In this document: positions 597 through 30,764 of the stretch, one piece after another
How positions within the stretch are numbered: the stretch's first letter is position 1
How the letters are laid out: each line of letters starts with the position of its first letter
From: a virus
Reading direction: 5' to 3' (one strand)
IMG/VR virus record: IMGVR_UViG_3300008050_008852
Span: 1-64,000 of that record
DNA length: 64,000 nucleotides
Program-made: the position numbers and the translations under genes
The notes under the pieces: model-generated
What the model was told of the DNA's origin: nothing
Seen by the model: the letters and a program-made list of their open reading frames with translations, nothing else
Database searches by the model: none

Positions 597-1376
597 ATGA
601 CTATTTTGATGTGTTCACCAGACTTTTTTGAAGTTATATACTCAATTAATCCCTGGATGACTGGTGAAAAAGTTAGTAAAGAAAATGCATTATTGCAGTG
701 GAACACATTAAAAAATGAAATTGAAAAGGCTGGTGGTAATGTAAAAACTATAAAGCCTATACGCGGATTGCCAGATATGGTTTTCACAGCAAATTCAGGC
801 GTTACATTTAAAAATAAATTTGTTACAGCAAACATGAAATTTTCAGAAAGGGTAGAAGAATCTAAACATTTTAAAAAATGGTTTAGTGATAATGGATACG
901 AGATTCTTGATTTACCTAAAGATATATCACTGGAAGGGTGTGGTGATGTTATAATTTGTGGTGACAATATTATAGGTGGTTATGGTTTTCGAAGTGATCT
1001 CCTGGGACTAGAAATAACAGCAGGCATGCTTAATCTAAATCTAATAGCCCTACAACTACAAAATCCGGCATATTATCACTTAGATACATGTCTTTGTATG
1101 CTAAATGAATTTGTCGGTATTTATTATCCAGGAGCATTTTTGGATAGTGATATTACAAAGCTCAAAAAGAAAATAAAATTAATCCCAGTCAGTAAGAACG
1201 ATGCAGAAAAATTTGTCTGCAATTCTATGATGGTTGGTAATACACTATTAACGTCATGTGACGATATATCAATAGAAAAACAAATTTTGAAATATGGTAT
1301 AGAAATAATTCATGTTCAAATGTCAGAATTTTTAAAATCGGGTGGCGGGATTCAATGTTTAAGCCTAAGCATTTAA
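597..1376 (+). CDS. ArgZ-like arginine dihydrolase / DDAH-family amidinohydrolase
   Basis: This is a guanidino-group-modifying enzyme of the amidinotransferase pentein fold. Visible signatures are an N-terminal SINPWM segment (16-21), GLPDMVFTANSG (57-68), EGCGDVI, the catalytic-His segment YYHLDTC (His161), YYPGAF, and a C-terminal GGGIQCLSL with the nucleophile Cys254. The order and wording of these motifs resemble the catalytic domain of cyanobacterial ArgZ/AgrE, which turns arginine into ornithine, ammonia and CO2, more closely than they resemble mammalian DDAH. The Asn of the TAN motif (Asn66 here) aligns with the Asn I recall as decisive for the dihydrolase reaction. Length (259 aa) fits a stand-alone catalytic domain. 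It could instead be an arginine deiminase or dimethylarginine hydrolase. In a phage it would free nitrogen and ornithine during infection. Confidence 0.85.
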   Translation: MTILMCSPDFFEVIYSINPWMTGEKVSKENALLQWNTLKNEIEKAGGNVKTIKPIRGLPDMVFTANSGVTFKNKFVTANMKFSERVEESKHFKKWFSDNGYEILDLPKDISLEGCGDVIICGDNIIGGYGFRSDLLGLEITAGMLNLNLIALQLQNPAYYHLDTCLCMLNEFVGIYYPGAFLDSDITKLKKKIKLIPVSKNDAEKFVCNSMMVGNTLLTSCDDISIEKQILKYGIEIIHVQMSEFLKSGGGIQCLSLSI

Positions 1377-1749: not shown

Positions 1750-1774
1750 ATATTTGTAATTTGTAAGTTTTTTG

Positions 1775-1800
1775 GCCACCCTTAAGGGTGGCTTTTTTTT
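1775..1800 (+). terminator. Rho-independent terminator
   Basis: A perfect 7-bp GC-rich stem (GCCACCC at 1775-1781, GGGTGGC at 1786-1792) with a TTAA loop is followed by eight T residues at 1793-1800. It lies 25 bases after the stop of the small membrane-protein gene and should end the unit that holds the arginine enzyme. The T tract is on the plus side only, so it is not bidirectional. Confidence 0.92.
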
Positions 1801-1839: not shown

Positions 1840-2037
1840 ATGAAAAAACACTTCAAGTATTTTGTTGAAAAAAATGAAAATAATGAACAATTTCAAGACG
1901 ACTTTGATTTTGAGGCTGATGATTTAACAGATGAAATTGAAAAATCATTATTAGAGCTAAGACACTTCTTAAAAATTCCAGACAGTGAAATAAGCGACGC
2001 AATTAAATCAAGGCGAGCTCTTAGAAAAAAAGATTAA
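1840..2037 (+). CDS. Hypothetical acidic protein, 65 aa
   Basis: The first half is strongly acidic (DDFDFEADDLTDEIE), and the C-terminal tail is basic (KSRRALRKKD). The middle may form a helix (SLLELRHFL). There is no membrane segment. A GGAG RBS (1830-1833) stands 6 bases before the ATG. The stop overlaps by 4 bases the stop of the convergent minus-strand gene. The family is not recognised. Confidence 0.55.
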   Translation: MKKHFKYFVEKNENNEQFQDDFDFEADDLTDEIEKSLLELRHFLKIPDSEISDAIKSRRALRKKD

Positions 2038-2282
2038 CAAATGTCAGTTATATTAAACTTCTTTAAAATCTCTTTCTCAATTTGGCAGATACGCATTCTG
2101 GTCACATTAAAAACCGCTCCAATATCTCTTAAAATCCATTTTCCTTTGCTTGCTCCAACTACAGCACAATTTAATGAGCCTTTGTGATCCATCCAATTTT
2201 TACATTCCTTTTTTCTACAACACAAATTTCTATTTTTATGTTCTATAAAACATGTTGTATTTTTAATTATATTGTCTTTCAT
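2034..2282 (-). CDS. Small Cys-rich sigma region 4-like HTH protein
   Basis: This is the only convincing minus-strand gene in the window. The N-terminal half has a cysteine cluster (Cys11, 21, 22, 27, 39) that could bind zinc. The C-terminal half (about 48-77) reads like the helix-turn-helix of sigma-70 region 4: a W-x-L-R-D-I-G helix, a turn, then TRMRICQIEKEILKKF as the recognition helix. I recall similar short proteins in T4-like phages. A GGAG on the minus strand (complement of 2294-2297) lies 11 bases before the start, which supports translation. It is divergent from phoH across a 40-base gap and could regulate phoH or itself. Whether it binds DNA or RNA polymerase is inference. Confidence 0.7.
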   Translation of the reverse strand: MKDNIIKNTTCFIEHKNRNLCCRKKECKNWMDHKGSLNCAVVGASKGKWILRDIGAVFNVTRMRICQIEKEILKKFNITDIC

Positions 2283-2322: not shown

Positions 2323-3627
2323 ATGAAAAATAATTCAAAAATTATGATTATTGATACTAGCGTATTATTATACGATATGAAATCTATCCATTCATTCTCT
2401 GATAACGAGGTTGTTATACCTTTAATTGTTTTGGACGAATTGGATAAGTTCAAAGATAAATCAAATTTACTTGGTGAATCGGCTCGATATGTTAATCGAT
2501 TTCTTGATTTTTTAAGGGTACATGGGGATTTAAGTGAGGGAGTTTTAGTACCTGATACTAATCAAAAAATTAGAGTTGAATTGAATTCCCGAGCAAGTTC
2601 AGCTATAGATGATTTTGATTGGTCAAAAGGTGATAATAAAATACTTGCAACTGCAAATTATTTAAAAATTAATAATCCAGAACGAGACGTTAAAGTTATA
2701 ACTAAAGATATTAATTTACGAGTAAAATGTGATGCATTAGGAATTAAGGCTGAAGATTATGAAAAAGATAATTTAGGGCCGGATGAAATTAATTATCGGG
2801 GTTTTTCAAGTATTGAAGTTTGTAACGATGATATAGATCGATTATTTAGTGATGGAGCAGTTAATACAGATGAACTTGAATTTAATTCAACCAATTTGTA
2901 TCATAATGAATTTATTGTAGCTACGGCTGGTACAAAAAGCTTTATAGGTGTACATAAAAAAGGTTTAATAAAGAAGTTGTCTAGAAATGTAACCAATGTT
3001 ATAAGACTGGAGGCTAAAAATAAAGAGCAGGCGTTTGCAATTGAGGCTTTATTAGATGAAAACATACCACTTGTCACATTGACAGGCCTTGCTGGGTCTG
3101 GAAAAACATTTCTAGCCATCATGGCTGGGCTTGAGTTGATTCAAAGTGGAACGTATGATAGGATTATCATTACAAGGTCTATCCAGCCTGTAGGGCGTGA
3201 TCTGGGGTTCTTACCTGGTACATTAGAAGAAAAAATGGATCCATGGCTAGCGCCGATATTAGATAATTTACGAGTAGCATTTAAAGATACGTCATATTTT
3301 AAATTAATGTTCGATAAAGGGATAATTGAAGTAGCCCCAATGTCATATATTCGAGGTAGAACATTCAATAATTCTATAGTGCTTGTAGACGAAGCTCAAA
3401 ATACCACAATTCATGAATTAAAAACAATTGTAACTAGGGTTGGAGATAACTCAAAAATTGTTTTGCTTGGGGACACAGATCAAATTGATACGCCATATAT
3501 CAACAAACAGTCAAATGGGCTTAGTATTGTAATTAGTAAATTTATGAATAGTGATCTTGCCGCGCACGTGCACCTTAGTAGAGGCCAACGATCAGAATTG
3601 GCAAGTACAGCCTCAAAAATTCTGTAA
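2323..3627 (+). CDS. phoH: PhoH-like protein with N-terminal PIN nuclease domain
   Basis: Residues 1-150 are a PIN domain, starting with MIIDTSVLL (Asp11) and carrying LDELDKF, DNKILATA and ITKDINLR acidic segments, so the metal-binding carboxylates look intact. After a linker, residues about 230-434 are the PhoH ATPase, with Walker A GLAGSGKT at 255-262 (Lys261) and Walker B LVDEAQN with Asp356-Glu357. PIN-PhoH proteins (PhoH2 type) are RNA helicases/ribonucleases in bacteria. phoH is one of the commonest auxiliary genes of marine phages, and its phage role is unsettled. At 434 aa it is full length for the fused form. The upstream AGG is about 12 bases from the ATG. Confidence 0.93.
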   Translation: MKNNSKIMIIDTSVLLYDMKSIHSFSDNEVVIPLIVLDELDKFKDKSNLLGESARYVNRFLDFLRVHGDLSEGVLVPDTNQKIRVELNSRASSAIDDFDWSKGDNKILATANYLKINNPERDVKVITKDINLRVKCDALGIKAEDYEKDNLGPDEINYRGFSSIEVCNDDIDRLFSDGAVNTDELEFNSTNLYHNEFIVATAGTKSFIGVHKKGLIKKLSRNVTNVIRLEAKNKEQAFAIEALLDENIPLVTLTGLAGSGKTFLAIMAGLELIQSGTYDRIIITRSIQPVGRDLGFLPGTLEEKMDPWLAPILDNLRVAFKDTSYFKLMFDKGIIEVAPMSYIRGRTFNNSIVLVDEAQNTTIHELKTIVTRVGDNSKIVLLGDTDQIDTPYINKQSNGLSIVISKFMNSDLAAHVHLSRGQRSELASTASKIL

Positions 3628-4189: not shown

Positions 4190-7100
4190 ATGGCTATTAA
4201 AGATTTCGAAGCTAGCAAAATTAAGACTGCTACAATTACACCAGAAGATACGATCATTACAGCTGATGGTGATTTGCATGTCACCGGGGATCTCACTGTA
4301 GATGGTAGCGGAGGGGGAGGTGATGGAAGTGTTACATCAGGATCATTTAATGTGCCATCGGCGGCGAATTTTGTTACAACTGCATCATTATCTATCGCTG
4401 GTGAAGATGGCGTGACAGCCGCGGTAGGGGATATTGGTACAGATGTTTATTTTTATGTATCAGGTAGTAAAAGTAGTGTTGTTCAAAGAAGTACAGAGAC
4501 TGGAAAAATTGCAGTCTTTGGTGGCGACCTTGTAGTTTCAGGCACTCTTTACGCAGAGAGACAAGTCGTCGAAGTTGACGAAAATGTTGACGGTGACTTC
4601 TTAGTTTCTGGTTCGGCAGTTATTTCCAAATACTTGGAGATAAAAGATGCACAAACAGTTGGCGGATTTCAAGCGGCAATTAAACTCAGTGATGATGGCA
4701 TGGGAGCTATTGTATGGGATGAAGCGGATGCGGCTATTTATGAAGATACCGGCAAGCTTGTTCTGTCAGCAAGCGATGATATTGAGTTGCGGCCTGCTGC
4801 TACTGGTAAAATTGCAGTATATAGTCCGAATAATGGAACAAGCACTTATTTTCAAATATACCGGAGGAGTGGGGGAATACCCTATACTCAAATGGCTATC
4901 GACCCATACAGTGCGACGTTCAATCCGAGTAAACTTTCAGCATTCGACTTTAGAGTTGGAGCGTCTGGCTTAGAGGGGGCAATACTTGTTGATTCCGGTG
5001 AGGGGCAGGTAATACTTGGTGCTGACGCATCTAATGCCGCAACGGCACAGGGAAATAGTATAGCACTTGGTTCCGACGTTAGCATTTATCTGTCAGGAAC
5101 CATTGATAGTAGAGATGGATCATCCCCGGGGACAATTGTCGCTGCTGGTGATGTGCTTATATCGGGTTCATTATCCCTTGGCGCGGATGCTGGGATATGG
5201 GAAGACGGGCGCCAACTCTTTCTTAGTGGAGCTAAATCGATCTCCTTAGGGACCGGTCCAACGGATTCGTTGTATGGACATATATTCATTACCGGTTCGA
5301 ATGATCAAGGAGACGGAAAAGTTTATATAAACCCTAGTAGTCAAAATGTTGATTTTATTGCACTCACCGATGATGGCGCGAGTCTTAGAGTAGATGCTGG
5401 TGCAAATACTGTCTTGGCCAGATCATCCGATGGCGGTACTGGTGATATATTTAAAGTTCAACGATGGTCTACGTACACTTATGATCTTCTTAATGTTGCA
5501 ACTAGCGAAACTGTCATTAATGATGCAGGTATTCCTTCACACGACTTTAGAGTAGAAACTGATAGTAAGCAATATGCAATCTTTACCGACGGAGGAACAA
5601 ATCAGGTACTCATCCTTTCGGGTGGTGCGAGTGGTTCACCAAACGAAGCTGCTGCAACCGATGTAGCATTTTATGTTTCAGGTGCTAAGGGATCTAGAAA
5701 TGAATTAGGTAGACTAAAAGGCACTGCGTTATTTGGCGGGGATGTTGTTATGTCCGGGGCGCTTTATGTGCATGGGGCAGAGACCGATGCACAAGGGGTT
5801 TCGGCGGCAGCTATTACTTTAAATAATAGTGGCGGGAGTAAAATTGTTTGGGACAGTCCAGGAAATGACGATCCTGCTGAATGTGATGCGCAAATATATG
5901 AAACTGGTGGTGGACTCTACCTTTCTGGTACTACGAGTGTGAGGGTTAAAGCCAGCACTGGGAATGTGGAAGTCATCTCTAGAGATGCCGACGTGAGCAT
6001 CTCTTCTGGGGACGATGTGAGTATCTATCCAGGCGATATGTTGAATGTATACGGCCCTAACAATATCGCTGGTACCGTGGCAGGATTTTACTATCGAACT
6101 GGCGGTTTTCCCAGGTCAATTATGCGTCTTAGTGATACCGGTGTTGAAATAAATCCAACCGGATATGGGACACTTGATTTTAAAGTAGAAACTGATAATA
6201 AGGAAAATGCGTTATTGGTTAGTGGTTCTACAGATCAGGTCTTAATTCTGTCTGGAGGTGCGGCATTATCTAATAACGAAGCTGCAGCAGGAGATGTAGC
6301 ATTCTATGTTTCAGGATCTGTTGGTGGAAAGAATCATGGTCTTGAAACTCATGCCAAGATCTCTGTTTTTGGTGGAGATCTTCATGTTTCCGGAAACCTT
6401 ACTGTCGATGGTGGCTCACCTGGAGGAGGAGGCGGCGGCGCAATAGATGTTGGGTGGCTTGGACCATCAACTGGTCAAATTGATACTACTGGATCTTTGG
6501 GCGTATCCGGATCGTTATATGTTGCAAATGCTATACAGCATATTGGCGACCCAGATACTAAGATGTCTTTTACAAATGATAAAATAACGTTTACTGCTGG
6601 TAATAGAGAATTTGTTAGATTTTCAGAATCAACCATCGATAAGACAATTTTCAATAATGGCAATGGTCCAGTTCTGTTTATTGTTAATAACACTAATGGC
6701 GAAGTTATAACAGCGGATGCGAATGGTGTTCATATAAATAGTGTACACTCACCCGAAAACGATTTCAGAGTAGAAACTGATACTAAATCACACACATTCT
6801 TTGTAGATGCTGGCTCTGAAAGAATTGGTATTGATAATCCGTCTCCCAATGAGTTATTAGATGTTAATGGAAACATAGTTTCGTCTGGTTTTGTTACAGC
6901 ATCAATGGGTCTTAGTGGATCACTAACTAGACTAGCCGATAATACTTCGTATCTCATAGCAGGAAATAATGTTACAATAACATCTGCCTCAAATGGTGCA
7001 GTTACAATTGCTGCTGTAGATGGTGGTACAACAACGTCAGGTTCCTTCAATGTAGTGACGTCATTCTTAGACCCGGGGCAGTTTGTTACAACATCTTCTT

Positions 7101-7927
7101 TATCTCTGGCGGGTAATTTAGGTTTTGCGCATCCTGCTAACGCTGGCCGAGCAGACACATTTTTCTTTGTATCAGGAAATATTGGTGATTCTGGCGGATT
7201 AAAATCGGATTCGGGAATGGCGGTGTTTGGTGGAGATACAGTCATTTCCGGAAATTTACATCTTCCAACAGCCCAACGAGCACTATATTTCGGTACAGAT
7301 GTAACAAAGACGTATGTTAAAAGTCCGGGTCAAGATGCGCTTGATATGAGTGGTGATATTGTACGTTTTGGTGCCAACATATCACAACATGGAGCACCTG
7401 CAGGAGATACTAACTTCTTTGCGTCTGGTTCAATAAATTCAAAAAATACAGGAACAAAAGGAACCGCAGTATTTGGTGGTGATTTAGTTATTTCAGGTTC
7501 TTTAGTAGCAAGGCAAAGAGAAATTTTGTTATCAACATATTTTCAATCCGATTTGAGTCCTGTGGAGGAATATATTCCATTATTTGGCTCTATTGGTGAG
7601 CAAGCTTCTCCAAATTATATCACCTTTAGTGTTCGTCCATGTCCCGGAAGGCTTATGTCAATAACACTCAGATCGAATAATGCCTCAGGATTGGGAAGCA
7701 CAACAGTTAGAATGTATAAGGGTGTAGATGGTGATGCCACACTAAGTGGGGTGGCGACAGATTCAGTCACCAGACCATCGGTCGCGACAGATACAGCAAC
7801 AACATTTACATTTTCCAGCGTAGCAACATGGGAGGCTGGGGACATTATTGGTTTTAGTATTGAACCTACAAATGCGCATAGGAATATGAATGCTACCATC
7901 GTACTAGAAAATGATTGGGTAATATAG
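4190..7927 (+). CDS. Large modular tail fibre-like structural protein, 1245 aa
   Basis: This glycine/serine/aspartate-rich beta-repeat protein has glycine hinges (SGGGGDG near 38-46 and GGGGGG near 745). Its commonest module is a beta pair ending F/Y-Y/F-VSG followed about 12-20 residues later by VFGGDLVVSG; at least five copies are visible (VYFYVSGS, two VAFYVSG, TFFFVSGN, TNFFASGS). A second module, DFRVETDxK...VLILSGG, occurs about three times. Near 905-940 there is an LSGSLTRL...SYLIAGNNVTI block shared with the fibres at 48255 and 54033. The last 130 residues are non-repetitive and could be the trimeric tip. The combination is typical of marine myovirus fibres. The host receptor is unknown. 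RBS GGAT is 7 bases before the ATG. Confidence 0.8.
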   Translation: MAIKDFEASKIKTATITPEDTIITADGDLHVTGDLTVDGSGGGGDGSVTSGSFNVPSAANFVTTASLSIAGEDGVTAAVGDIGTDVYFYVSGSKSSVVQRSTETGKIAVFGGDLVVSGTLYAERQVVEVDENVDGDFLVSGSAVISKYLEIKDAQTVGGFQAAIKLSDDGMGAIVWDEADAAIYEDTGKLVLSASDDIELRPAATGKIAVYSPNNGTSTYFQIYRRSGGIPYTQMAIDPYSATFNPSKLSAFDFRVGASGLEGAILVDSGEGQVILGADASNAATAQGNSIALGSDVSIYLSGTIDSRDGSSPGTIVAAGDVLISGSLSLGADAGIWEDGRQLFLSGAKSISLGTGPTDSLYGHIFITGSNDQGDGKVYINPSSQNVDFIALTDDGASLRVDAGANTVLARSSDGGTGDIFKVQRWSTYTYDLLNVATSETVINDAGIPSHDFRVETDSKQYAIFTDGGTNQVLILSGGASGSPNEAAATDVAFYVSGAKGSRNELGRLKGTALFGGDVVMSGALYVHGAETDAQGVSAAAITLNNSGGSKIVWDSPGNDDPAECDAQIYETGGGLYLSGTTSVRVKASTGNVEVISRDADVSISSGDDVSIYPGDMLNVYGPNNIAGTVAGFYYRTGGFPRSIMRLSDTGVEINPTGYGTLDFKVETDNKENALLVSGSTDQVLILSGGAALSNNEAAAGDVAFYVSGSVGGKNHGLETHAKISVFGGDLHVSGNLTVDGGSPGGGGGGAIDVGWLGPSTGQIDTTGSLGVSGSLYVANAIQHIGDPDTKMSFTNDKITFTAGNREFVRFSESTIDKTIFNNGNGPVLFIVNNTNGEVITADANGVHINSVHSPENDFRVETDTKSHTFFVDAGSERIGIDNPSPNELLDVNGNIVSSGFVTASMGLSGSLTRLADNTSYLIAGNNVTITSASNGAVTIAAVDGGTTTSGSFNVVTSFLDPGQFVTTSSLSLAGNLGFAHPANAGRADTFFFVSGNIGDSGGLKSDSGMAVFGGDTVISGNLHLPTAQRALYFGTDVTKTYVKSPGQDALDMSGDIVRFGANISQHGAPAGDTNFFASGSINSKNTGTKGTAVFGGDLVISGSLVARQREILLSTYFQSDLSPVEEYIPLFGSIGEQASPNYITFSVRPCPGRLMSITLRSNNASGLGSTTVRMYKGVDGDATLSGVATDSVTRPSVATDTATTFTFSSVATWEAGDIIGFSIEPTNAHRNMNATIVLENDWVI

Positions 7928-8119: not shown

Positions 8120-8159
8120 AATTAATTTCTATAAATTAGAATTATAGAGGTTGATTATA

Positions 8160-28359: not shown

Positions 28360-29613
28360 ATGAATAAGAAAAAAATACTGATGTTATCAGATCATGCACT
28401 TAGCACATCTGGTGTTGGTGTACAAAGTAGACACCTCATAAACGGCTTGATACAAAAAGGTGATTGGACTGTTAGACAATTCGGCGCCGCCATTAAGCAT
28501 AATAATTATGATGTTGTTAAAGTAACAGATGACTTTATAATTAAGCCGGTTGATGGTTTTGGCACTGTTGACATGATTAGACAAACCATAGCCGCAGAAA
28601 AACCAGACATTTTGTTACTATTTACAGATCCACGTTTCTTTATTTGGTTGTGGCAAATTGAAGATGAAATACATCAAATTTGTCCAATTGCTTATTGGCA
28701 TGTGTGGGATAATTATCCGTTTCCAAAATATAATGAACCATATTATGAAGCAACTGATTTAATAAATTGTCATAGCCATTTAACATACACGATGCTAAAA
28801 GAGCATTATCCAGATAAAACTAATTTTGTCCCCCATGCACTTCCAGATGAATTATACTATAAAATGAATCCGGACGAAATTAAAGACGCTAAAATTAAGG
28901 CTTTGGGTTATGATAAGAAAGATCATTTTGTTGCATTTTGGATGAATCGAAACGCCCGCCGGAAGCGTCCAAACGATGTTCTGGCGGCCTGGAAAACGTT
29001 TTTAGAAGAACAAGAAGAACTCCTTGGCGAAAAACCAAAGGCTCTACTTTTAATGCATACCGATCCTAATGATTCGGAGGGCCCAAATTTATTTGCGACA
29101 GCTGATCATCTTGGTATTGGTAACACAATAGTTTTTTCAACTGACCGGATCGATTTTGCACAAATAAATGTTTTACATAATATATCCGACGTTTGTCTTA
29201 ATATGTCTTATGCAGAAGGTTTTGGTTTGGCTACTTTAGAAGCAATGCAAACAGGAACACCAATTATAGCTGCAAAAACCGGTGGTCTAACCCGTCAAGT
29301 TGTTGATCACAGAGACGGCACTGAAAATGGTGTGGCTGTTGATATTAGCTTGCGTTCTCTGGTAGGCTCTCAGGCAGTTCCTTATATTTATGAAGATTAC
29401 GTTGATTGTAATGATATTGCAAAGGCAATAACAAAAATTTATAATATGAATGAACAAGATAGAGATGAATTAAGTAATAAAGTCTTAAGTTATGTAAAGT
29501 CAGAATTTAATTTTCAAACAACAATTGATTTGTGGGACGAAACACTTAATGAAACAATTAACAATTGGAAGGACAGATATGATCGAATTGTACTTGAGGA
29601 GATTACATCATGA
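28360..29613 (+). CDS. Family 4-type (GT-B) glycosyltransferase
   Basis: The 417-aa protein has MLSDHALSTSGVGVQSRHL at the start, the linker strand HFVAFWMNRNARRKRP, and the donor site NMSYAEGFGLATLEAMQTG near 285-303 with the two-Glu spacing of retaining GT4 enzymes. The domain lengths fit a full GT-B enzyme. A GGTGGAG RBS lies 9 bases before the ATG. It is followed by a second GT4 gene with a 4-base overlap. Confidence 0.88.
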   Translation: MNKKKILMLSDHALSTSGVGVQSRHLINGLIQKGDWTVRQFGAAIKHNNYDVVKVTDDFIIKPVDGFGTVDMIRQTIAAEKPDILLLFTDPRFFIWLWQIEDEIHQICPIAYWHVWDNYPFPKYNEPYYEATDLINCHSHLTYTMLKEHYPDKTNFVPHALPDELYYKMNPDEIKDAKIKALGYDKKDHFVAFWMNRNARRKRPNDVLAAWKTFLEEQEELLGEKPKALLLMHTDPNDSEGPNLFATADHLGIGNTIVFSTDRIDFAQINVLHNISDVCLNMSYAEGFGLATLEAMQTGTPIIAAKTGGLTRQVVDHRDGTENGVAVDISLRSLVGSQAVPYIYEDYVDCNDIAKAITKIYNMNEQDRDELSNKVLSYVKSEFNFQTTIDLWDETLNETINNWKDRYDRIVLEEITS

Positions 29614-30764
29614 ATATTTGTGTTAGAGGCCCTTTATTATCAATGAGCGGCTATGGAAATCACACCAGACAAGTTTATAGATGGCTATCACTACACCAAG
29701 AACATAAAATCGCAACACAAATACTACCGTGGGGTATTACTCCATGGCATGTAAATCCTAATTCTGAAAATGGTATGATAGGTAAAATCATGACCGAGTC
29801 AACAACAATGGAAGCGACAGGTTTTGATTTATCATTTCAGGTTCAATTACCTAATGAGTGGGATCCTAATCTTGCAAAATTCAATGTAGGGGTCACCGCT
29901 GCTGTAGAGACAGATATTTGTAATCCAGCCTGGATTCAATGTTGTAATAGAATGAATTTAATAGTTGTACCATCGCACCACACAAAGCAAACTATTGAAA
30001 CATCTGGTACATTAACTACACCAATTGTCGTAATTCCTGAATCGTTTCCAGATTCCCTTAGTGAAAAAAATATTAAACCATTTGAGCTTGATGTTAAGAC
30101 TAAATTTAATTTTTTAATATTTGGTCAAATAACAGGTAATAATGCGTTTATTGATAGAAAGAATACCTTCTTCGCACTTAAGTGGATTGTTGAAGAATTT
30201 GCCAATGATCCGGATGTTGGTATAATAATTAAAACAAATCATGGCCGTAATACAACAATTGATCGTAAATCATGTAGTCGAATGTTAAGAAAAATTGGTG
30301 CCGAATTAAATTCAACAATTCCAGTATATCTATTACATGGCACAATGTCAGATCATGAACTTGCTGGACTGTACAGAAGTGATTCCATAAAGGCTCTGGT
30401 TGCTCCAACTAGAGGTGAAGGATATGGTTTACCACTTTTAGAAGCCGCCGCCACTGGATTACCTGTACTAGCAACTAACTGGTCTGGTCATAAAGATTTT
30501 TTAAATGCTGGTAAATGGATAAAATTTGATTATAAGTTGTCTGATGTACCAAAAGAAAAAATAGATTCTGCAATTTTTATTGAGGGTTCTAAGTGGGCAG
30601 AAGTTGATGAGGCGGATTTTAAAAACAAAATTAGAAAATTTAGAAAAAAGCCGCACCAACCAATGCAGTGGGCCGAAGATCTATCAAGAACACTTCAGAA
30701 TACACATTCATTTGAAGCAATTGCCAGACTTTGGTCGGCAACTATGAGTGACTATATAAGATGA
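29610..30764 (+). CDS. Family 4-type (GT-B) glycosyltransferase
   Basis: The 384-aa protein starts NICVRGPLLSMSGYGNHTRQ, has KFNFLIFGQITGNN as the mid-protein strand, and APTRGEGYGLPLLEAAATG as the donor-binding segment with the conserved Glu pair. It differs enough from its upstream neighbour to be a separate lineage. It is the last sugar gene of the island. Its stop overlaps the start of a small membrane protein that leads into the late/baseplate genes, so the island and baseplate regions are transcriptionally continuous. Confidence 0.88.
   Translation: MNICVRGPLLSMSGYGNHTRQVYRWLSLHQEHKIATQILPWGITPWHVNPNSENGMIGKIMTESTTMEATGFDLSFQVQLPNEWDPNLAKFNVGVTAAVETDICNPAWIQCCNRMNLIVVPSHHTKQTIETSGTLTTPIVVIPESFPDSLSEKNIKPFELDVKTKFNFLIFGQITGNNAFIDRKNTFFALKWIVEEFANDPDVGIIIKTNHGRNTTIDRKSCSRMLRKIGAELNSTIPVYLLHGTMSDHELAGLYRSDSIKALVAPTRGEGYGLPLLEAAATGLPVLATNWSGHKDFLNAGKWIKFDYKLSDVPKEKIDSAIFIEGSKWAEVDEADFKNKIRKFRKKPHQPMQWAEDLSRTLQNTHSFEAIARLWSATMSDYIR

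Follow-up and report, generated by a model that had tools for sequence, protein, structure and literature searches.

The gene at positions 597 to 1,376 (plus strand) of the window, the 64,000 nucleotides analyzed here, which are bases 1 to 64,000 of a 128,008-bp virus record, probably encodes a working arginine dihydrolase of a large T4-type tailed phage, and the nitrogen and ornithine released from arginine would feed nucleotide and amino-acid supply. The reading starts from an intact ORF, the family of its product, the predicted fold, the catalytic residues, the location on a phage genome and the conservation within a viral lineage; enzymatic activity, product and use of the nitrogen are predictions made from these features.

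An argZ-like gene on the genome of a large tailed phage

The ORF of the putative stand-alone arginine dihydrolase (argZ-like gene) is uninterrupted and encodes a single-domain protein of 259 aa. Genes for a T4-type terminase, a portal protein, a major head protein, a tail sheath and a baseplate are located on the same record, together with genes for a UvsX-like recombinase and a DnaB-like helicase, and terminase, capsid or sheath genes were also detected on many other records harboring argZ. Host contamination was rejected because of the phage hallmark genes on the record and because of a synteny that is common to other viral contigs. The argZ-like gene is located upstream of a phoH-like gene (2,323 to 3,627, plus strand) with PIN and PhoH domains (PF13638, 6e-31; PF02562, 1e-55), and in the viral loci L005 and L008-L016 argZ likewise precedes phoH on the same strand. 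Two small ORFs are situated between both genes: one (1,840 to 2,037, plus strand) is 44% identical to an ORF in the same place in L005, and the other (2,034 to 2,282, minus strand), which codes for a sigma-70 region-4-like helix (PF04545, 1.5e-5), is 71% identical in L005. The order argZ, small ORF, reverse-strand small ORF, phoH is therefore kept in L005, where phoH is 75% identical and where DnaJ-like and Hsp20-like ORFs are present in addition. A possible intrinsic terminator (1,774 to 1,793, plus strand), formed by an 8-bp stem and a T-run, lies 3' of argZ and of a small ORF at 1,453 to 1,749; three terminator-like sites were found when 2.0 were expected by chance. For pairs of related viral copies in which it was measurable, the window gene itself not being among them, dN/dS ranged from 0.04 to 0.19, indicating that the gene is kept by selection. 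Location on a viral genome, conservation in related viruses and purifying selection support the prediction of an auxiliary metabolic gene of a large T4-type tailed phage, and the earlier proposal of a phage-borne metabolic gene, made from the sequence only, is borne out by the terminase, portal, major head protein and tail sheath of the record.

Several other features of these genomes were recorded. Three tandem tail-sheath-like genes of about 1,050 aa each are found at about 95.4-105.0 kb of the record of the window's phage (G000), that is, from position 11,463 of L151 to its end and on into L152, and at least two tail-sheath-like genes also occur on G001, a related record of 235 kb. An HNH/homing-endonuclease-like gene (L152, 1,043 to 2,686, minus strand; about 105.0-106.7 kb of the record) is located inside the tail region. 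In the window, several glycosyltransferase- and nucleotide-sugar-type genes occupy positions 8,151 to 30,764, and L008-L010, L015 and L016 have kept two of them (28,360 to 30,764) downstream of phoH. A 1,245-aa ORF (4,190 to 7,927) with repeated VSGS-type stretches and a G+C content above that of its surroundings looks fibre- or adhesin-like by eye. Genes for a PrkA-type serine kinase and/or DUF444/YhbH are found close to argZ in the viral loci L011, L047, L055, L059 and L061.

The encoded protein is a member of the wider ArgZ/AgrE family

When the 259-aa protein was compared with NCBIfam models, matches below the respective cut-offs were obtained for the arginine dihydrolase NF052232 (8e-68, 228.5 bits; cut-off 450), the Mtb-type 'dimethylargininase' NF045659 (3e-67, 226.6 bits; cut-off 300) and the bifunctional ArgZ/AgrE NF052231 (4e-66, 223.6 bits; cut-off 1025). 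That the score for the dihydrolase model stays far short of its cut-off (228 of 450) and almost ties with that for the dimethylargininase model (226.6 of 300) counts against the main reading. Pfam matches were PF19420 DDAH_eukar (3e-20) and ADI (2e-9). In a phmmer search of the PDB, the only strong matches were ArgZ (Sll1336) and AgrE (Alr4995), at 1e-51, and DDAHs appeared at 1e-4 or worse. A fused C-terminal ornithine-cyclodeaminase domain is absent from the phage protein. As this domain is absent and the cut-offs of NF052232 and NF045659 are missed, the protein was placed in the wider family and is termed a predicted arginine dihydrolase: judged by these comparisons, it is an intact single-domain member of the ArgZ/AgrE arginine-dihydrolase family and not an NF052232 equivalog.

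In order to collect relatives, viral and genome contigs were scanned with single sequences, which gave no usable match, and an alignment with phiXF1, ArgZ and AgrE was used instead. This alignment-based scan yielded 65 viral loci, reducing to 54 distinct sequences, and 80 bacterial loci were kept; a fused cyclodeaminase was found in none of the distinct viral sequences. When 28 bacterial genomes were searched with PF02274, no match was obtained. The phage protein contains both family motifs, INPWM and FTAN. Its putative catalytic residues are Asn66 of the FTAN signature (codon 792 to 794), corresponding to Asn71 of ArgZ in the alignment, Glu113 of the EGxGD motif (933 to 935), the catalytic acid in the superfamily, His161 of the YHLDT motif (1,077 to 1,079), the catalytic histidine, and Cys254 (1,356 to 1,358), corresponding to the nucleophile Cys264 of ArgZ, all of them encoded on the plus strand. 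The sequence-only reading had named Asn66 in a TAN motif and the pair His161/Cys254, and these were all recovered when the codons were checked against the DNA. Asn66, Arg85, Glu113, Arg132, His161, Asp163 and Cys254 do not vary in any of the viral (54/54), stand-alone bacterial (62/62) or bifunctional (20/20) sequences, and a single exception across the same set occurs at Asp117. Asn71 and Cys264 are the residues mutated in the ArgZ structures 6juz and 6jv1, respectively, and the equivalent of Cys254 is also mutated in the AgrE structure 6lrh. The role of Asn71, and hence of Asn66, is presumed here from the titles of PDB entries.

In the infected cell, free arginine would be hydrolyzed by the Cys254/His161/Glu113 machinery, Asn66 would let hydrolysis continue beyond citrulline, and each arginine would yield ornithine, CO2 and two ammonia. 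Enzymes of the host or of the phage would then use ammonia and ornithine for glutamine synthesis, for conversion of ornithine to glutamate and for formation of carbamoyl phosphate, and nucleotide and amino-acid supply would be backed during phage replication. We know of no member of the stand-alone viral clade that has been assayed. Regarding relatives, cyanobacterial AgrE converts arginine to proline via ornithine with release of ammonia (PMC8262935), and M. tuberculosis requires the DDAH-annotated Rv2323c to grow on arginine and to channel arginine carbon into proline (PMC4569260).

An AlphaFold2 model of the phage protein, obtained with an input alignment of window and locus proteins, had a mean pLDDT of 95.3 and a pTM of 0.91. 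In a Foldseek search of the PDB, chains of ArgZ and AgrE ranked first (TM 0.94-0.95 for most, 1.4-1.6 Å), followed by DDAHs (P. aeruginosa 1h70 and human DDAH-1) with TM of about 0.78-0.84, about 3-4 Å and 16-18% identity; arginine deiminase reached a TM of about 0.78, and amidinotransferases were likewise clearly farther than ArgZ/AgrE. Both sequence and predicted fold of the phage protein are nearer to the ArgZ/AgrE domain than to DDAH, ADI or amidinotransferases. Just three matches below 0.001 were obtained against predicted viral structures, the best of them with 20% identity, and this viral structure library therefore contains no close relative.

Gene context of relatives and possible uses of the products

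No partner gene for the use of ornithine or ammonia was found beside argZ in the window itself, and the context of relatives was considered. Among bacterial loci, the order aldehyde dehydrogenase-argZ-class III aminotransferase is found in a Methylomirabilota locus (L109), argZ-aminotransferase in L131 and L105, and aldehyde dehydrogenase followed by a separate AgrE-type cyclodeaminase and then argZ in a Nitrospirae locus (L129), whose cyclodeaminase shows 42-44% identity to the AgrE-type cyclodeaminase domain. A Streptomyces plasmid carries in a row genes for an arginine deiminase, an ArgZ-type protein and a monooxygenase of the SidA/IucD/PvdA family, which includes ornithine hydroxylases. 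The context of these stand-alone relatives fits ornithine, and not citrulline, as the predicted product. Two viral contigs (L020 and L046) have an aldehyde dehydrogenase-argZ-aminotransferase arrangement, the aminotransferase being lysine-6-transaminase-like (lysine/ornithine type), and L020 has in addition a gene assigned at the family level to ornithine cyclodeaminases, its specificity being unsettled. The same type of aminotransferase is encoded elsewhere on two records (G013 and G017) with argZ and clear phage hallmark genes. The assignment of L020 and L046 to viruses derives from IMG/VR and from weak terminase-like matches in G012 and G034, where no capsid or sheath matches were obtained, and these weak matches were judged insufficient to establish L020 and L046 as phages.

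A carbamoyltransferase gene is present in 8 of 47 argZ records and in all 8 (viral loci L017, L021, L022, L027, L029, L030, L033 and L052) it lies no more than 2.3 kb from argZ, on the same or the opposite strand. Three of the carbamoyltransferases were tested and fitted aspartate carbamoyltransferase (ATCase) far better than ornithine carbamoyltransferase. The probability of such closeness by chance is about 1e-7, a rough value calculated with one near-copy dropped and for cases that, owing to shared descent, are not fully independent. No ATCase gene was found in the window's own record, which is incomplete. The adjoining ATCase genes in 8 viral records point to pyrimidine supply, and ornithine is known to activate carbamoyl-phosphate synthetase from E. 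coli. Taken from other viral lineages, the ATCase and the aldehyde dehydrogenase-argZ-aminotransferase neighbors favor a predicted role in nitrogen, glutamate or pyrimidine supply.

It had also been proposed that a phage copy could release ornithine for polyamines used in DNA packaging. That the same enzyme would serve to provide ornithine for putrescine and spermidine, employed in DNA packaging or translation, appears unlikely. Phages do encode polyamine enzymes and ornithine can limit putrescine synthesis, and a survey of viral polyamine genes detected arginase homologues in giant viruses and none in phages (PMC9992855), a gap that an ArgZ, forming ornithine from arginine without urea, could fill. 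Putrescine rises on infection by phage JBD44 (PMC11898732), and host enzymes could use the ornithine. However, genes for PLP-type ornithine/arginine/lysine decarboxylases were detected in none of the argZ records, the window record included (0/47 for PF02784 and 0/38 for PF01276), a gene for AdoMet decarboxylase occurs in only 4 of 38, and none of the identified recurrent neighbors of argZ is a polyamine gene, so that the proposal of polyamine supply for packaging finds little support.

Arginine lowers carbamoyl-phosphate supply via repression in many bacteria. A phage might therefore profit from the removal of arginine as such, by depriving host translation, or signalling that depends on arginine, of this amino acid or by relieving repression of carbamoyl-phosphate synthesis, with the products left unused; carbamoyl phosphate made available in this way would be consumed by the ATCase encoded close to argZ in 8 viral records. 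We consider this improbable, slightly more so than a polyamine role: a phage requires arginine for its own proteins as well, and the sequence context that speaks for such a drain hardly separates it from the preferred reading of a dihydrolase supplying nitrogen and ornithine.

The phage protein is separated from deiminases and dimethylarginine hydrolases

A tree that included outgroups set the ArgZ family apart from DDAH, ADI and an amidinotransferase-like protein (support 84/89). The window protein groups with the viral proteins from L005-L007 (98/97) and, in a wider viral set, with those from L009, L011, L015 and L019 (87/91), its nearest relatives thus being viral, and the bifunctional ArgZ/AgrE proteins form a clade of their own (97/95). 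Support in the tree extends to these clades and not to their deep branching order. Membership in the DDAH, ADI or amidinotransferase families was rejected on the basis of tree, motifs and predicted fold, and the phage protein falls outside the DDAH clade. The identification as an ArgZ-type enzyme is thereby upheld by sequence, predicted fold, tree and the complete set of catalytic residues. The likeness to the cyanobacterial ArgZ stands with respect to type and residues but does not amount to a close relationship, as identity is 36%, the viral clade is separate and the bifunctional proteins form their own clade. A recent transfer from a cyanobacterial ArgZ was rejected since the window protein does not fall into the cyanobacterial clade of the tree; the protein is ArgZ-type without demonstrated descent from cyanobacterial ArgZ. 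The ornithine-ammonia cycle of cyanobacteria, which had been invoked as well, concerns the pathway of a host, and nothing found indicates a cyanobacterial host.

The phage protein might alternatively be an arginine deiminase that stops after the first ammonia and forms citrulline, since the superfamily and the Cys/His/Glu machinery are common to both and weak matches to PF02274 and arcA were obtained. This is quite improbable: the ADI compared has FTRD in place of FTAN, lacks INPWM and comprises 411 residues, the predicted fold is much nearer to ArgZ (TM 0.95 versus 0.78), the tree separates ADI with moderate support (84/89), and the gene neighbors of stand-alone relatives in bacteria agree with ornithine as product. 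A dimethylarginine hydrolase, as which the homologue from phage phiXF1 is annotated and for which the nearly equal score of NF045659 might speak, is the least probable reading and very unlikely, as the Bacillus DDAH-family protein has FTRD, lacks INPWM and falls outside in the tree (84/89), solved DDAHs are farther in sequence and fold, and the Mtb-type proteins themselves cluster with ArgZ and have both INPWM and an Asn in position 66.

The label 'dimethylargininase' of the Mtb-type proteins itself looks doubtful in view of Asn66, INPWM, the grouping with ArgZ and the requirement of Rv2323c for arginine use (PMC4569260). Actinobacterial proteins with this label fall inside the ArgZ family in the tree, among them proteins encoded on plasmids (L156, L157, L158 and L161) that display ArgZ-type motifs and group with ArgZ, and many such actinobacterial proteins may be misnamed.

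Occurrence of argZ in phages

No PHROGs family is named arginine dihydrolase or ArgZ, and no phage arginine dihydrolase was described in the open-licence literature searched, so that a known enzyme family apparently occurs here in an unusual and undescribed carrier. With no PHROG name, no viral structure entry and one copy annotated as DDAH, phage argZ genes are probably overlooked or wrongly labelled in surveys of viruses. No amino acid is richer in nitrogen than arginine. Relatives of the gene on dozens of other viral contigs suggest that many phages could draw nitrogen from host arginine with an ArgZ-like enzyme, and the link to ATCase may mean that host arginine is burnt by phages to pay for pyrimidines. 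A broader proposal, to which we give somewhat less than an even chance, is that argZ is a widespread, unrecognised gene of large tailed phages, built by different lineages into modules with phoH, with ATCase (pyrimidines) or with aldehyde dehydrogenase and aminotransferase (arginine to glutamate).

Comparison with known systems

The phage protein shows about 36% identity over its whole length to ArgZ from Synechocystis (Sll1336; PDB 6juy, 6juz, 6jv0 and 6jv1), and it has in common with the N-terminal domain of ArgZ the motifs INPWM, FTAN, EGxGD and YHLDT, the C-terminal Cys and the predicted fold (TM 0.94-0.95), whereas the C-terminal domain of ArgZ of roughly 430 residues is missing and the phage protein belongs to a separate clade. 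AgrE from Anabaena (Alr4995; PDB 6lrf, 6lrg and 6lrh), a bifunctional dihydrolase/ornithine cyclodeaminase, has the same catalytic domain and residues, but its cyclodeaminase domain is absent from the phage protein. DDAHs (P. aeruginosa 1h70 and human DDAH-1) have the superfamily fold and the Cys/His chemistry in common with it. The Rv2323c-type 'dimethylargininases' (NF045659) resemble the phage protein in being single-domain proteins with INPWM, Asn at position 66 and a similar HMM score, although those plasmid-encoded members that were tested cluster apart from it in a clade of their own (100/100). Among isolated phages, a full-length match of ArgZ type was obtained only for phiXF1_67 from Xanthomonas phage phiXF1 (WZX06591.1), a protein that is 34% identical and possesses all catalytic residues; it is annotated as DDAH, falls outside the viral clade of the window protein and has no phoH annotated beside it.
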